DNA from: Methanogenium organophilum
GTDB lineage: Archaea > Halobacteriota > Methanomicrobia > Methanomicrobiales > Methanomicrobiaceae
NCBI RefSeq assembly: GCF_026684035.1
Contig: NZ_CP113361.1
Span: forward strand, 868,001 to 932,000
Reading direction: 5' to 3'
Length of the DNA: 64,000 nt
Part shown: in pieces, positions 55,995-62,629 of the stretch
How the letters are laid out: each line of letters starts with the position of its first letter
Numbering within the stretch: the stretch's first letter is position 1
Translations under genes and position numbers: made by a program
Notes under the pieces: model-generated
Told to the model about the DNA's origin: nothing
Database searches by the model: none
The model's input: only the letters and a program-made list of their open reading frames with translations

Positions 55995-56504
55995 TCACCG
56001 GGTTACCGGCCGGGGTGTGACCCCTCCCCATCCCAGACCACGAAACACACATGCCGCAAGGCCGACATTCAGTGCAATCACACATGCGTAGACAAGACCG
56101 TTGGAGAGAGGAGTGTGCCAGAAAAGTACCGGAACCATAGAGAGGCCGGACCAGACGAGGAGATACGGGAGAAAAAAACCAACGGCTGATACCAGAATGT
56201 CGCAAATGAGAATACGGGTGAACCGCACGTCCCCATCGAACCAATCGGAAAACACAAAGGGAGGGATGAGCACTGCCATGGGCACCACGAATATCAGTGC
56301 CCCGACGAGAAGCATCGGGGTATCAACTGGCATTAAAAGGGCAAATCCCGCTGCCATGACAAGGGCGGGGAGCCCGATACAAATCATCCGGTTTTTTGTC
56401 CGGCTGAGGACGGCATAGACGATGGAGAGCAGCACAACGCCCATAATACAGGCGACAATCTCAAAGAGTATCACCATGCCCAGAAAGCCTTCAACGTTAC
56501 TCAT
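55995..56504 (-). CDS. Polytopic membrane protein, unknown
   Basis: A 169-residue protein with five predicted helices (about 9-31, 42-58, 64-85, 97-120, 136-155) and few charged residues. No family is recognised. Codon use and hydrophobic pattern look genuine. It precedes the MFS remnant on the same strand. Confidence 0.65.
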   Translation of the reverse strand: MSNVEGFLGMVILFEIVACIMGVVLLSIVYAVLSRTKNRMICIGLPALVMAAGFALLMPVDTPMLLVGALIFVVPMAVLIPPFVFSDWFDGDVRFTRILICDILVSAVGFFLPYLLVWSGLSMVPVLFWHTPLSNGLVYACVIALNVGLAACVFRGLGWGGVTPRPVTR

Positions 56505-56801: not shown

Positions 56802-58028
56802 TTATCTCTTTTTCAGAATCGCAAAACCCACAATTCCGGCGATAAGAACGGATACAAGAACGACCAAACCGATTGGATTTTTCTGTGGAGAATGATTTTG
56901 TACCACACTGTCCGAAATATCTGTGACACCAGGTGTGTTTTTCGCAGCTATAGTAGTCGGAATCGTCCCAGATATTGCGGTTAACCATTCCACCCTCGGT
57001 GAGTAACGGTGCCATAGCACCAGTCCACCCTCAAAGTCTGTGATTCCTGCAACCTCTGATGCAATATCGCTGAAGGTTGCTGTCCCGATATCATATACCC
57101 GGATTGTACCGGTATTCGGATTATCGTAATCGACTTCCGGCTCGTTTACATAGACGACGGTCTCACCCGAGATGAACGGTTTTGAATATCCCTCCATTGT
57201 TTCAAGAGAGGTCGTCATGCCGGAAGCCAAATCCGTCAGTATGATTTCACTCCCTTTCATTGGAATATAACTCCCGTTATTCCACGACGGAGCGTGCAAT
57301 GCCTTCATCCATACAACCGTATCACCGGAAATATCTGCCGTGCCAAAGGTTTTGTCCGATCTGCTCTCTGGAATAACAGTGTCCTCACCGGTAGAGATGG
57401 TATAGACATGGATTTCCCGCCCGGATTCCCCGTCCGTCCGGTCGCACCCCCATACGATACGGTCACCGTCGATGGCAAGACCCTGGATCATATCCCCTGA
57501 ACGAAAGATTCTTTCGTTCGTGCCGGTTGAAAGCGTATGGAGGACAAGATCGTCACCTCCACAATTTTCGCGTAGTATCACGTGGTCCCCGTCAGCGGCA
57601 ATATCAGTCACTCTTGGTTCAATGTTGTTGTAAAAGCCGGTCGAATAGAGAATTCGCTTTTCTCCGGTGGCCAGATCATATTCATATACCGTTTTGGTCC
57701 GCGAAGTCCAGAGTTCCGAAGTGTCATACCCGGTGTAATAAACTCGTCCTTCAGTGATCTCCAGTGATTCGATATCCATGGTATCATTCGCAAGGGGGAC
57801 ACGCCGGTACAGCGCCATGTCAGGACTGTACACCATAATTGCCGGAGGACTGGAACCACCCACATATGTTGCAATCAGATTGTCGTCAATACACATATGA
57901 ACCTGAGCGGTAGCCGAAGCCTGGACAGGTATACGGACATCCGAGGGTTCTGCAAGACAGGGAACAACAGATACAGTACAAAAGAATAGTAACAGAAAAA
58001 TAAAACACAATTTTTGGGAAAATTTCAT
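56802..58028 (-). CDS. Membrane-anchored beta-propeller protein, copy A
   Basis: A 408-residue surface protein. A signal peptide (LCFIFLLLFFCTVSVVPCLA) is followed by TolB/WD-like blades (VTDIAADGDHVILRE, GLAIDGDRIVWGCDRTDG, ADISGDTVVWMKA). A Ser/Thr-rich linker and the C-terminal helix IGLVVLVSVLIAGIVGFAI with a Lys/Lys/Arg end anchor it. It is 29 bases downstream of the small secreted protein of copy A, and GAGG precedes its ATG. It is a close paralog of the gene at 58730-59914, with near-identical blocks such as EVDYDNPNTGTIRVYDIG. It may bind a ligand or partner at the cell surface. Confidence 0.88.
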   Translation of the reverse strand: MKFSQKLCFIFLLLFFCTVSVVPCLAEPSDVRIPVQASATAQVHMCIDDNLIATYVGGSSPPAIMVYSPDMALYRRVPLANDTMDIESLEITEGRVYYTGYDTSELWTSRTKTVYEYDLATGEKRILYSTGFYNNIEPRVTDIAADGDHVILRENCGGDDLVLHTLSTGTNERIFRSGDMIQGLAIDGDRIVWGCDRTDGESGREIHVYTISTGEDTVIPESRSDKTFGTADISGDTVVWMKALHAPSWNNGSYIPMKGSEIILTDLASGMTTSLETMEGYSKPFISGETVVYVNEPEVDYDNPNTGTIRVYDIGTATFSDIASEVAGITDFEGGLVLWHRYSPRVEWLTAISGTIPTTIAAKNTPGVTDISDSVVQNHSPQKNPIGLVVLVSVLIAGIVGFAILKKR

Positions 58029-58057
58029 AATTGATCCTCAAAATGGGTTATTTTCCT

Positions 58058-58489
58058 TCATGAATAACTAACCGGGTCTGCAGTGACGATGATACCTGAC
58101 CGAATGGATTGAATGCTACCGCTCATAATTCCTGCAAGGATTGACCCGTCCGGGTCGTCAACAGGCTGGCTGTTCTCATCAAAGATCTTGGGACCGGGAG
58201 TCACAACCTCCGGGGCAAGGCTTGGATCTACCCACTGATAGGGCCTGCTCCACATTTCTTCGAGCAGCTTTGGATCAACGTTTGCTTTGATCTTTTCGTA
58301 ATTTTCCTCAGTGTACGCGATCTTCGCCAGTTCACCACGTGTAAGCTCCTCTCCCCAGTGTTCATTCAGCCATTTCATTCCCTCTTCTGTGTATGTGCCA
58401 GATATTTCAAAGGCGCTTACAGAAGGGGCGACGAATACCAGCAGGACCATGAGTCCTGCAAGCATTGTTAGCGTTCGTGATCGGTTCAT
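58058..58489 (-). CDS. Secreted small protein, copy A (C-terminally shortened)
   Basis: A 143-residue secreted protein of unknown family. A signal peptide (MNRSRTLTMLAGLMVLLVFV) is followed by the module ISGTYTEEGMKWLNEHWGEE ... EENYEKIKANVDPKLLEEMW shared with two other proteins here. It ends at ADPVSYS, where copy B continues for another 91 residues. Copy A has an exact in-frame 273-bp deletion between TTATTC repeats, keeping the final Ser and stop. The start at 58489 follows GTGAAG. Upstream ATGs at 58504 and beyond are rejected because the two copies differ there by a one-base indel. Confidence 0.82.
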   Translation of the reverse strand: MNRSRTLTMLAGLMVLLVFVAPSVSAFEISGTYTEEGMKWLNEHWGEELTRGELAKIAYTEENYEKIKANVDPKLLEEMWSRPYQWVDPSLAPEVVTPGPKIFDENSQPVDDPDGSILAGIMSGSIQSIRSGIIVTADPVSYS

Positions 58490-58630
58490 TTTCTTCACGT
58501 CCATCCTGGCCGGATCTGCCCGGCCGGGTCTGCTGTCAAAGTCGTTGGAGAAGATGAGTGACATGGTAATCCGGCTCTTTCCCCTGACCCGACAATTACC
58601 GATTTTCTTTATTATTAAATACCTTTTATT
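58490..58630 (-). promoter_or_regulatory. Promoter and structured leader, copy A
   Basis: This block is nearly identical to 60651-60790. It has a TATA-like TATTTAATAATAAAG (minus strand, about 58609-58623). A leader follows containing a GC-rich hairpin with arms at 58520-58528 and 58505-58513 (one mismatch) around a 6-base loop, ending about 15 bases before the ATG. Confidence 0.6.
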
Positions 58631-58729
58631 CCAGAACGCTCTACACATAGAATATCGTAACCATAGACAATAGTGAAAAAACTGTTTGTGAAAGATATCC
58701 AGGTGTTGAAAAAGAAGAAATTCTGGTTA

Positions 58730-59914
58730 CTATCTTCTGCGTATAGCCACATAACCAGCAATTCCTGTTGTGAGTGCCACTATGACCGTGAAAGGATTGC
58801 CAGGACTTGTCTGTGTCGTAGTCTCTGCAGGTGCCGGGGATGTCACCGCCGGAATCATCCCTGAGAGAGAGGTGAGCCAGTCAGACCTTGGTGAGGACTT
58901 GTGCCAGATAACCAGTCCACCCTCAAAGTCAGTGAACCCTGCAACCTCTGATGCAATATCACTGAAGCTAGATGTCCCGATATCATAAACCCGGATCGTT
59001 CCGGTATTCGGATTGTCGTAATCAACTTCCGGTTTTTTCACATAGACAACCGTATCGTCGGAAATATACGGGGAGCTCAGTGCATTGATGATTTCGATAG
59101 AAAACGTCTTTCCCGTTGACAGGTTGGTCAAACGGATATCCCCACCTGCAGTCGTAAGACTCGGGTATCCCAGTGATGTATCCGGTTCCTCTGCTGTTCT
59201 AATCCAGACAACCCGGTCACCTGAAATATCACCATATCCCAATGTTCTGATTGACTGACTTTCTGGAATGATATCATCCTCACCGGTAGAAACAGTGTAT
59301 ACATGAATCTCCCGCCCTGGTTCCCCATCGGTCCGTTCGCATCCCCACATGATCCGGTCACCATCTATAGCAAGGCCATAAATAATGTCTCTGGAACCGA
59401 AGATTATCTGATTCGTGCCGGTTGAAAGAGTATGCAGTATGAGATCCTGATCATTAACTCCCCCGCGTAATACTACATGATCCCCATCAGCGGCAATATT
59501 TGTGACTCTTTGTTGAGGACCTGTAGTGTTGTAGATTGTCCGTTGTTCTTCGATAGCAAGATCAAACGCATAGACGGTTTCTGTTCGTGAATAAGACGGT
59601 TCGGTAGAGTCGTATTCGGAGTAATAGATTCTGCCGTCAGAAAATTCCAAAGAGTCAAGATCCATTTGATCACTGGAAAGAGGGATACTTTGGTACAAGG
59701 TACCATCAGCATTGAATACCATTATTGCCGCAGGTACGGAGCTACTTACATATGTGGCAACAAGATTGTTGTCGATATGGCTGTCAATCCAGTCCATATC
59801 TGAACCTCCAATTGGCATACAGATATCTGAGGATGCAGCGAGGCCGGGCATGATAGCTAATGAACAAAAAGAAATTAGCAAAAAGATAAAGGACATTTTC
59901 CCTGATAGGTTCAT
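58730..59914 (-). CDS. Membrane-anchored beta-propeller protein, copy B
   Basis: A 394-residue paralog of the copy A propeller with the same layout. It has a signal peptide (MSFIFLLISFCSLAIMPGLA), blades with VTNIAADGDHVVLRG, GLAIDGDRIMWGCERTDG and YGDISGDRVVWIRT, a Thr-rich linker and a C-terminal helix (NPFTVIVALTTGIAGYVAI) with an Arg tail. The two copies differ throughout, so the duplication is not recent, although some blocks are conserved almost exactly. It starts 34 bases after the small secreted protein of copy B. A run of T residues at about 59930-59936 lies between them. Confidence 0.88.
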   Translation of the reverse strand: MNLSGKMSFIFLLISFCSLAIMPGLAASSDICMPIGGSDMDWIDSHIDNNLVATYVSSSVPAAIMVFNADGTLYQSIPLSSDQMDLDSLEFSDGRIYYSEYDSTEPSYSRTETVYAFDLAIEEQRTIYNTTGPQQRVTNIAADGDHVVLRGGVNDQDLILHTLSTGTNQIIFGSRDIIYGLAIDGDRIMWGCERTDGEPGREIHVYTVSTGEDDIIPESQSIRTLGYGDISGDRVVWIRTAEEPDTSLGYPSLTTAGGDIRLTNLSTGKTFSIEIINALSSPYISDDTVVYVKKPEVDYDNPNTGTIRVYDIGTSSFSDIASEVAGFTDFEGGLVIWHKSSPRSDWLTSLSGMIPAVTSPAPAETTTQTSPGNPFTVIVALTTGIAGYVAIRRR

Positions 59915-59948
59915 AAATAATTACTCCGGTAAAAAAATAGGTATTCCT

Positions 59949-60650
59949 TCATGAATAATAGTATGAAGGAGACCACGTGCTTCCACTTGCAGTTGGATTC
60001 GTTGATTGTGCAACTGTCTGGGATTGGTACAGGGTGTCATGAACCGGGCTCCGAGCGCCGGATGTCAATAATGTTATACGAGGATCGTTATCATAGCCAT
60101 ATTTAACATTGTATGATGTAGACAGCCAATCTCCGTTCCCGTGAAGTTGGGATTCAACTCTTAGAGAACCAACATATACTTCGCCATATACATATCCGCT
60201 GCCACCATGCCTGATGTACCCTCCGGAATAACTCACCGGGTCTGCTGTGACGACGATGCCTGACCGAATGGATTTAATACTACCATCCATGATCCCTGCA
60301 AGGATGGACCCGTCCGGGTCGTCAACAGGCTGGCTGTTCTCATCAAAGATCTTCGGGCCGGGAGTAACAACCTCCGGGGGATAGCGGTCTCCCCAGAAAT
60401 AAGGCTGGCTCCATATTTCTTCGAGCAGTTTTGCGTCAACATTTGCCTTTATTTTCTCATAATTTTCCTCGGTGTACGCGATCTTCGCCAGTTCACCCAG
60501 TGTAATCTCCTCTCCCCAGTGTTCATTCAGCCATTTCTGACCATCTTCTGTGTACGTGCCCGATATTTCAAAAGCGCTCACAGAAGGGGCGACGAATACC
60601 AGCAGAACCATGAGTCCTGCAAGCATTGCTAGTGTTCGTGACCGGTTCAT
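59949..60650 (-). CDS. Secreted small protein, copy B (full length)
   Basis: A 233-residue secreted protein with the same signal peptide and N-terminal module as copy A (ISGTYTEDGQKWLNEHWGEE, LGELAKIAYTEENYEKIKAN). It keeps a C-terminal region of about 100 residues, rich in Gly, Ser and Tyr (YIRHGGSGYVYGEVYVG, ending SGSTWSPSYYYS), that looks beta-rich. No family is recognised. It is the intact version against which the copy A deletion can be read. The ATG at 60650 is the first with a good site (GTGAA) and is the start of the signal peptide. Confidence 0.82.
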   Translation of the reverse strand: MNRSRTLAMLAGLMVLLVFVAPSVSAFEISGTYTEDGQKWLNEHWGEEITLGELAKIAYTEENYEKIKANVDAKLLEEIWSQPYFWGDRYPPEVVTPGPKIFDENSQPVDDPDGSILAGIMDGSIKSIRSGIVVTADPVSYSGGYIRHGGSGYVYGEVYVGSLRVESQLHGNGDWLSTSYNVKYGYDNDPRITLLTSGARSPVHDTLYQSQTVAQSTNPTASGSTWSPSYYYS

Positions 60651-61080
60651 TTTTTTCACGTCCATCCCGGCCGGATCTGCCCGGCCGGGTCTGCTGTCAA
60701 AGCCATATGGAAGATGAGTAACATGGTAATCCGGCTCTTCCCTCTGACCCAACGATTACCGATTTTCTTTATTATTAAATACGTTTTATTTCAGATCAAT
60801 CTACATATCTTTTGAAAAACATTCCATTCCACATTTCTAAAAAGATTCAATTAAATACAGGCTTCAAATCCCTTTTCTACCAATTTCAGAATCATATCTT
60901 TCTAATTTATGAGAAAGAAAGCACGTACCCGGATGTGATCCGGGGCAGAACACCTCCCATCATGATGCTCAATATATCGGCGATATGTAGAGGGATTGGG
61001 AATAATCTATTTATAAATATGTATGGAATACTGAAACAATTCAGGGGACTCAGGGAACCCCGGATGAGGAGCACAAGCAG
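60651..61080. promoter_or_regulatory. Divergent promoter region with leader of copy B
   Basis: The left part (60651-60790) is the copy B leader: TATTTAATAATAAAG near 60769-60783 and a perfect 9-bp GC hairpin at 60666-60689 with a 6-base loop. The right part serves the plus-strand gene at 61081, with TATA element TTTATAAATAT at 61010-61020 and GAGGAG at about 61064-61069. The AT-rich middle holds no gene. Confidence 0.6.
60666..60689 (-). other. Perfect 9-bp leader hairpin, copy B
   Basis: Arms CCCGGCCGG (60666-60674) and CCGGCCGGG (60681-60689) flank ATCTGC. It ends 15 bases before the start codon and could control translation. Copy A keeps the arms at 58505-58513 and 58520-58528 with one mismatch. 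Confidence 0.55.
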
Positions 61081-61797
61081 ATGAACACCAGGTACCTGAC
61101 TGTCGGGGCTTTGATGGCACTTCTTTTTCTGTCTGCCGGAGTTGCAGCTTTTCAGATCTCAGGGGAATATACCGAAGAAGGGATGGCATGGCTGAATGAA
61201 CACTGGGGGGAGAATATCACCGTAGGAGACGTCGCACGGATTGCCTATACCACAGAGAATTACGAAAAAATGAAGGCAAACGTTGAACCGGAACTTCTCG
61301 AAGAAATGTGGAGCAGGCCCTACCACTGGGGCAGTCGTCAGCCGGGGTACTCAGAAGAACATCCCGAATGCCCGTTCGGTGCCACCGCATGTGACGAGAA
61401 CGGTCCGGTGAACATCCGGGAACTGAACCTCTCACAGAAACAGGAGATGGGCCTGGAGAATGCGGTGACCGATACGAGCGGCTACATTGTCATCGGGTAT
61501 ATGGACAAGTCCATTAAAGAGGGAGAGATGAAACCCTTTCACCGCCGGATGCCGGAGAATCTCAGCCGGTTCACGTATGATCTGCTCTGGGGAAATACCG
61601 AGGATTCCCTGAAACTGACCATCTTTGCCCCGGACGGGGTGATGGGGCCCTATTATGACGACAGCGACGGGAGGAAAAACGGCAGGATTTATCTACAGAT
61701 CTCCCGCCCGGATGGTATCGAACCGGGTGACTGGTACGCGGTTGTCGAAGGAGAACAGGTTGACGGTACCTGCCAGTTCATGCTGCTTGTCGTGTGA
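61081..61797 (+). CDS. Secreted protein with the same N-terminal module, third homologue
   Basis: A 238-residue secreted protein. The signal peptide (YLTVGALMALLFLSAGVAA) is followed by the shared module (FQISGEYTEEGMAWLNEHWG, ARIAYTTENYEKMKANVEPE, LLEEMWSRPYHWG), at about 60% identity by eye to copies A and B. The C-terminal part is different. It contains CPFGATACDENG, which could form a disulfide, and a beta-rich end resembling bacterial pre-peptidase C-terminal domains (DSLKLTIFAPDGVMGPYYDD, GDWYAVVEGEQ). It shares an operon with the membrane winged-helix regulator 10 bases downstream. The start follows GAGGAG. Confidence 0.85.
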   Translation: MNTRYLTVGALMALLFLSAGVAAFQISGEYTEEGMAWLNEHWGENITVGDVARIAYTTENYEKMKANVEPELLEEMWSRPYHWGSRQPGYSEEHPECPFGATACDENGPVNIRELNLSQKQEMGLENAVTDTSGYIVIGYMDKSIKEGEMKPFHRRMPENLSRFTYDLLWGNTEDSLKLTIFAPDGVMGPYYDDSDGRKNGRIYLQISRPDGIEPGDWYAVVEGEQVDGTCQFMLLVV

Positions 61798-61807
61798 GGC
61801 GTGAGAG

Positions 61808-62629
61808 ATGATTTATCCACGATTAACGAATCTGGTTCTTCTTCTGGCTATTGTGGCCATGATGTCCCCTGTTGTCACTGCCGTTGAAACAGGCGGCTAT
61901 GTGGTCGAACCGGCGTATGATATCTACCCGGAATACAGCGATGTCTATTTTACTCCGCGTTCAAATGAGACGGTGCTCCTCAATGAACCGGAACCCGCAC
62001 CCATCCAGATAAACGATCTGCCCCCCTGGGTATTGATACTCCTGGGCATTATTGCAGTAACGCCGGGTGTTGCCTTTCTGGGCAAATACCTGTCAGCAAC
62101 CAATCTACCCATCATCGGGGGATTCAAAAGAGTATCCCGGAACAATATTCTCGATAATTCTTCCCGCAGGATGATCTATTCCTGTGTAACAGAGAACCCC
62201 GGAATCCAGCTCTCGGACCTGAAACGCTCCACCGGGTTTAGCTACAAGAACCTGAGCTACCACCTCAATCTCCTCACGAATTATCACATGATTACCGCTG
62301 AAGAATGCAAGAATACAACCCGGTATTTTGAGAATTCAGGCAAATATTCACAGGAAGAGCGGGCGATGATGATGCATCTCATCCGCCCGAGTGACAGAAA
62401 AATAATAGAGACCGTCCTGCACCACCCCGGAATATCCCGCCGTGAGATCAGCAGTCATGTCGGAATCTCCGGTCCCTCGGTGAGCTGGCACATGCATTTC
62501 CTGATGGAAAACCATATTATCGAACAGAGAAAGGAGGGAAGAGTTTCTCGTCACTACCTCACAGGTGAGATGATGAACGTGTATGAGAATGTTTCAGGAC
62601 GGCTTGGTTCGTCCGTTCATTCGATATAG
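61808..62629 (+). CDS. Membrane-bound one-component winged-helix regulator
   Basis: A 273-residue regulator. A signal-like N-terminal helix (7-24), an external segment of about 48 residues and a second helix (73-93, PPWVLILLGIIAVTPGVAF) put the rest inside the cell. Two winged helices follow, at about 112-175 (MIYSCVTENPGIQLSDLKR, SYKNLSYHLNLL) and about 195-255 (IIETVLHHPGISRREISSH, SGPSVSWHMHFLMENHIIE). It should sense something outside and act directly on DNA. GAGG lies eight bases before the ATG. The upstream secreted protein and the divergent duplicated units are its natural candidate targets. Confidence 0.87.
   Translation: MIYPRLTNLVLLLAIVAMMSPVVTAVETGGYVVEPAYDIYPEYSDVYFTPRSNETVLLNEPEPAPIQINDLPPWVLILLGIIAVTPGVAFLGKYLSATNLPIIGGFKRVSRNNILDNSSRRMIYSCVTENPGIQLSDLKRSTGFSYKNLSYHLNLLTNYHMITAEECKNTTRYFENSGKYSQEERAMMMHLIRPSDRKIIETVLHHPGISRREISSHVGISGPSVSWHMHFLMENHIIEQRKEGRVSRHYLTGEMMNVYENVSGRLGSSVHSI

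Follow-up and report, generated by a model that had tools for sequence, protein, structure and literature searches.

A membrane-anchored regulator, a secreted module and surface beta-propellers in a putatively autoregulated locus of Methanogenium organophilum

Introduction

In a 64,000-nucleotide stretch of the Methanogenium organophilum genome (NZ_CP113361.1, positions 868,001 to 932,000), hereafter called the window, two similar gene pairs follow each other on the minus strand, each composed of a gene for a small secreted protein and a gene for a surface beta-propeller. What is the function of these two units, and how did they come to stand side by side? A preliminary description confined the locus to positions 56802–60790 and interpreted it as a tandem duplication giving rise to a surface pair that works jointly. 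The two-gene units are indeed there, but a third copy of the module found in the small proteins lies just outside that span, divergently oriented at 61081–61797 and followed by a regulator gene at 61808–62629; this third copy, the regulator and a motif shared by all the operons point to a regulated surface locus instead of a mere pair. The reading that we consider probable, deduced from the sequence, is that of a surface locus which is private and autoregulated: a membrane regulator, together with a secreted module-bearing subunit, would control the module and propeller surface proteins.

Components of the two units

The minus strand is read in the order small gene A → propeller A → small gene B → propeller B. 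The open reading frame, alignment A5 and the module and C-terminal profiles indicate that small secreted protein A (59949–60650, with upstream starts possible as far as 60752) is made of a signal peptide, a helical module (FEISGTYTEDGQKWLNEHWGEEITLGE...) and a beta-rich C-terminal domain. The next gene encodes surface beta-propeller A (58730–59914), which has a signal peptide and a C-terminal hydrophobic helix, and is followed by small secreted protein B (58058–58489), which comparison with protein A shows to consist of the module only, and by surface beta-propeller B (56802–58028; profile match 5e-204), in which hydropathy places a C-terminal transmembrane segment at residues 386–404. The propeller fold originally proposed for the surface proteins is supported by an all-beta AlphaFold model of propeller A (pLDDT 83, C-terminal helix 374–393) and by a Foldseek search that retrieved WD40/TolB-type propellers (E 5e-12, prob 1.00); the C-terminus comprises a hydrophobic segment and a basic tail. 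The Methanosarcina beta-propeller repeat proteins (NCBIfam TIGR04275, beta_prop_Msarc) are likewise archaeal propeller repeats, but the scores of 29.1 bits, obtained with propeller B, and 10.6 bits fall far under the 85-bit cut-off of this family, and the propeller of the present locus has a module-protein partner and a regulator nearby. A literature search on surface propeller proteins in Methanomicrobiales yielded nothing relevant. Beyond unit B, positions 55995–56504 encode a 169-amino-acid protein that has ~6 hydrophobic segments and matches nothing in Pfam; its place after the unit is conserved in Methanogenium marinum and in the metagenome-assembled genome (MAG) locus L027.

The leader of unit A contains, just 5′ of the start region, a hairpin CCCGGCCGG..CCGGCCGGG (60666–60689, minus strand), matched with one mismatch in the leader of unit B (58505–58528, minus strand). 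RNAalifold finds its nine pairs in ~5 of 7 leaders with a single compensatory change, and the idea that the leader is a conserved regulatory RNA was dropped on these grounds.

The module

Small gene A reads ...GTGAGTTATTC|CGGAGGG..., ending ...TATTATTC|ATGAAGG, and small gene B joins both at TTATTC; B has thus undergone an in-frame deletion of 91 codons at this repeat and, since the deletion took the C-terminal domain, small protein B is the module alone. Comparison of this module with that of its closest relative (L027) gives dN ~0.02 and dS 0.26, a dN/dS of ~0.08 which indicates that it is under purifying selection. Since it is thus conserved, and since module-only proteins are found elsewhere too (L031–L034, L068), it is probably the module that does the work of the small protein.

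The module had initially been described as one not recognized, and in fact it has no match above the curated cut-off in either Pfam or NCBIfam, while comparison with PDB sequences disclosed no known domain in it. The PDB matches that were obtained, mostly designed trefoils, aligned to a short stretch of the C-terminal part of the small protein and were discarded. The C-terminal domains of the small protein and of the 61081–61797 product do not belong to any curated family either. With a pLDDT of 42, the structure predicted for the small protein is too poor for an interaction surface to be proposed.

History of units A and B

Direct repeats on one strand account for the tandem appearance of the locus. 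Repeats D1, D4 and D5, which cover the leader and the small gene, display 87–89% identity and are 2160–2164 bases apart, in agreement with the ~2.16 kb initially given, whereas D2, D3 and D6, located in the propeller, are 73–80% identical in their matching parts and 1892–1895 bases apart, the spacings being different because small gene B is shorter than A. The identity between units A and B amounts to ~90% in the leader, 92% in the signal-peptide region and 60–65% in the N-terminal half of the propeller; the leader and signal peptide are, as claimed, more conserved than the propellers, although “near-identical” is too strong a term for leaders that are highly similar at ~90%. Likewise, each unit does have a small secreted protein, but the two are not equivalent, B being without the last 91 codons of A.

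What does not hold is the notion of a recent duplication in which the pair was kept together as one event. In the trees of both propellers and small genes, A clusters with the M. marinum sequence and B with that of L027, so that A and B form no clade for either gene, and a forced A+B clade is rejected (p-AU 6e-6 for the propellers and 3e-6 for the small genes). Furthermore, the synonymous divergence between A and B ranges from ~1.2 to saturation for the propellers vis-à-vis 0.26–0.65 for the small genes, which argues against one joint event; the lower small-gene dS suggests that small gene and leader either underwent homogenization or were duplicated after the propellers. The single unit of M. 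marinum is mostly 89–100% A-like through the small gene and propeller, with a B-like tail and downstream region, while the L027 unit has a B-like head and A-like portions in its middle and tail. In favor of a single recent tandem duplication of the promoter and two genes one could cite the 87–92% identity that leader and small gene show between copies for the greater part of their extent, but rejection of the A+B clade by both gene trees, near-saturation of the propeller synonymous sites and the A/B mosaics in single-copy relatives contradict this history, which we find hardly credible. Instead, trees, dS values and mosaics indicate that A and B are old paralogues, and that the tandem, or two allele types, is older than the species, with recombination between copies having continued thereafter.

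The regulator operon

The gene at 61081–61797 (plus strand), delineated by its open reading frame, alignment and profiles, encodes the third module copy (68% identical to that of A over 66 residues) fused to a secreted domain different from that of A. This second domain appears PPC-like by eye only, and Pfam PPC (PF04151) gave no match in it at E up to 0.5 (19 members). The 61081–61797 gene is the first of an operon whose second gene, starting about ten bases later, encodes the regulator (61808–62629, plus strand), a membrane-anchored protein with two winged-helix domains according to Pfam, hydropathy and alignment A3. The Pfam matches above cut-off are HTH_HVO_0163_N (1.5e-12) and HTH_24 (1.1e-14); the hydrophobic segments span residues 1–19, possibly a cleaved signal peptide, and 66–84, and this N-terminal part, which precedes the winged helices, includes a strongly conserved external segment (residues ~20–70), ETGGYVVEPAY... 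(ETGGYVVEPAYDIYPEYSDVYF). A predicted DNA-binding domain (Pfam) is hence combined with at least one transmembrane region (hydropathy), as in a transmembrane transcription regulator (TTR). In the same genome there are 10 matches to the regulator at E up to 1e-20.

Co-encoding of a membrane-bound winged-helix regulator with a small extracytoplasmic partner is familiar from ToxR–ToxS and TcpP–TcpH. The likeness lies in the joint encoding of regulator and small partner and is a works-like comparison only, since the latter systems are bacterial, have the reverse topology and an unrelated partner. ArnR and ArnR1 of Sulfolobus acidocaldarius are archaeal membrane-bound one-component regulators acting through defined boxes on the promoters of surface structures (PMC6396743). 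In ArnR, however, the HTH is N-terminal, a putative HAMP is present and the two transmembrane segments are C-terminal (PMC6396743), whereas the regulator of the present locus has the reverse domain order, with N-terminal transmembrane segments and two C-terminal winged helices, no HAMP among its Pfam results, a secreted partner and targets predicted in the locus only. TTRs, in which a single polypeptide likewise comprises a DNA-binding domain and transmembrane segments, have been surveyed in bacteria and archaea, and Methanomicrobia are reported to be enriched in them (PMC10269533); the secreted module partner, private operator and propeller targets encountered here are not described in the portion of that survey available to us. 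In the literature searched, no target, partner or binding site was found described for a regulator of this type.

An operator-like motif confined to the locus

Alignment of the promoters revealed the sequence TGTAGA-N8-RAATAA directly before the TATA box in all three operons of the window: TGTAGAGGGATTGGGAATAA in the regulator operon (60986–61005, plus strand), TGTAGATTGATCTGAAATAA in unit A (60786–60805, minus strand) and TGTAGAGCGTTCTGGAATAA in unit B (58626–58645, minus strand). These three exact matches compare with 0.01 expected from shuffles of the window. With T fixed at position 11, the motif occurs three times in the 2.65-Mb genome, always in the locus, and its reversed control does not occur; without the fixed T, there are three further genome matches outside the locus.

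A looser form of the motif, searched over 232 genomes of the order, gave 135 matches, 34 of them in 13 homologous loci and 101 elsewhere (tallies counted by hand from the printed table). The latter correspond to chance, given that the reversed pattern yields ~121 matches in the same genomes. All 34 locus motifs precede, in the correct orientation, a gene for a module, a module with second domain or a propeller, and an AT-rich TATA-like box is present a few bases 3′ of each; as the count was made on the very loci that had yielded the motifs, only the absence of the motifs elsewhere in the genomes is an independent test. The motif is retained even in loci whose module proteins are only ~20–35% identical to A.

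A second, more distant module–propeller–regulator locus of the same genome (L078, at ~1.69 Mb) contains two divergent small/propeller pairs. It has a motif of its own, TCTGA-N6-TCCAACAA, whose two exact genome matches are both at this locus, and among 146 loci a slightly shortened version, TCTGA-N6-TCCAAC, is restricted to the homologues of L078. The same kinds of genes are thus accompanied by a different motif, and each locus subtype seems to have its own candidate operator; since a change of regulator subtype is accompanied by a change of motif, it is likely that the regulator binds the motif. The position of the site just 5′ of the TATA box fits an activator and would also suit a repressor blocking TFB.

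Relatives and distribution

Loci were gathered by the module alone, which yielded 52 module loci in the order Methanomicrobiales. A propeller lies within 400 bases of the module in 34 of them, the small gene often preceding the propeller on the same strand, and a regulator of the same family within ~2.5 kb in 33 (hand count). In one genome module and propeller are joined in a single 590-residue frame, a natural in-frame fusion (L092 5097–6869). On the other hand, 18 of the 52 loci, some of them weak partial matches or short contigs, have no propeller nearby, and neither do any of the 15 module loci inspected elsewhere in the phylum, four of which nonetheless have a regulator pair in their vicinity. 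The expected linkage of module and propeller in other genomes is therefore frequent within the order, but the suggestion that the module might always be followed by a propeller proved false; 34 of 52 within the order vis-à-vis none of 15 outside it indicates that the pairing is a Methanomicrobiales feature, not general to the module. Regulator and secreted-partner pairs recur throughout the order; L114, L115 and L116 present a small secreted protein paired with a membrane winged-helix regulator without module or propeller.

M. marinum, two Methanoregula MAGs, an unclassified Methanomicrobiales MAG and additional genomes belonging to other families share the arrangement in which the regulator and module-fusion genes stand opposite the small gene and propeller, the order regulator, module-fusion, divergent small gene, propeller being conserved across several families. 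Propellers form arrays of two to four copies in L029, L032, L074 and L075; in L032 (1003–6681), L074 and L075, three to four tandem propeller genes adjoin module genes, and the far propeller gene of the L032 array has its own copy of the motif. In genome G024 the locus is bordered on both sides by 1.4-kb direct repeats (92% identical) that hold a hydrolase gene (L030 4935–6353 and 10790–12217), while its congener G023 has one repeat copy and no locus there (L127 8320–9690), a difference that suggests gain or loss by recombination. In M. marinum two same-orientation paralogues (L026 5011–5832 and 10764–11585; 76% DNA identity), which look like secreted beta-type carbonic anhydrases, flank the locus.

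How the locus may work

We infer that the regulator would be made together with the module-bearing secreted subunit, would bind TGTAGA-N8-RAATAA just 5′ of the TATA boxes and would thereby govern unit A, unit B and the operon in which it is itself encoded, with few if any further targets. Could the motif be instead a core-promoter element or the site of some other factor? It is separated from the TATA box by a few bases only and so falls in the region contacted by TFB, which would suit such a site, but a core element should recur at many promoters whereas the motif is confined to the locus, tracks the presence of the regulator gene and is replaced by a different motif where the regulator subtype is different; we deem this explanation improbable. 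Even less likely is that the locus serves in defense or as a source of virus receptors, with patchy, diversifying surface propellers maintained by conflict with viruses or predators. Its patchiness in the genus, with presence or absence between congeners, and its arrays of two to four, recombinant propellers are what such conflict might produce, yet the loci that were read adjoin no recognizable defense genes and PADLOC returned only generic winged-helix matches to the regulator, none of them specific, so that a known defense system was discarded as a candidate.

As to the signal, the trigger would most likely be the state of the cell surface, because the module is common to the secreted partner of the regulator and to the small proteins that accompany the propellers. 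A ligand in common, or else the propellers, may be sensed by the module subunit, which would signal to the regulator through the latter's conserved external segment. Such a scheme might go as far as an envelope self-monitoring circuit, in which the regulator gauges, via the shared module, how abundant its own surface products are or to what extent they are occupied, a possibility that we put forward tentatively. The locus could also be regulated without self-sensing, by an unrelated signal such as nutrients, partner cells or salt, the module being then a common secretion or wall-binding domain. The occurrence of the module alone in other archaea and of module-only proteins is what a general attachment domain would entail, and responsiveness to nutrient limitation is known from other membrane regulators of archaea (ArnR, PMC6396743); this explanation, to which we would assign some but no great likelihood, is at odds with the fusion of the module to the partner of the regulator specifically where the targets carry the module.

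Implications

With this locus, a secreted module that has no name yet and is met repeatedly in the order and outside it becomes defined. The locus also shows surface propellers of methanogens to be organized in arrays that recombine, and provides at once candidates for a regulator, its secreted partner and the motif. The latter is specific enough for a whole regulon to be predicted from sequence and, as it is nearly confined to the locus, surface behavior is now open to direct test. Should self-monitoring be confirmed, paralogous loci would run in parallel in one cell, each through a separate operator.
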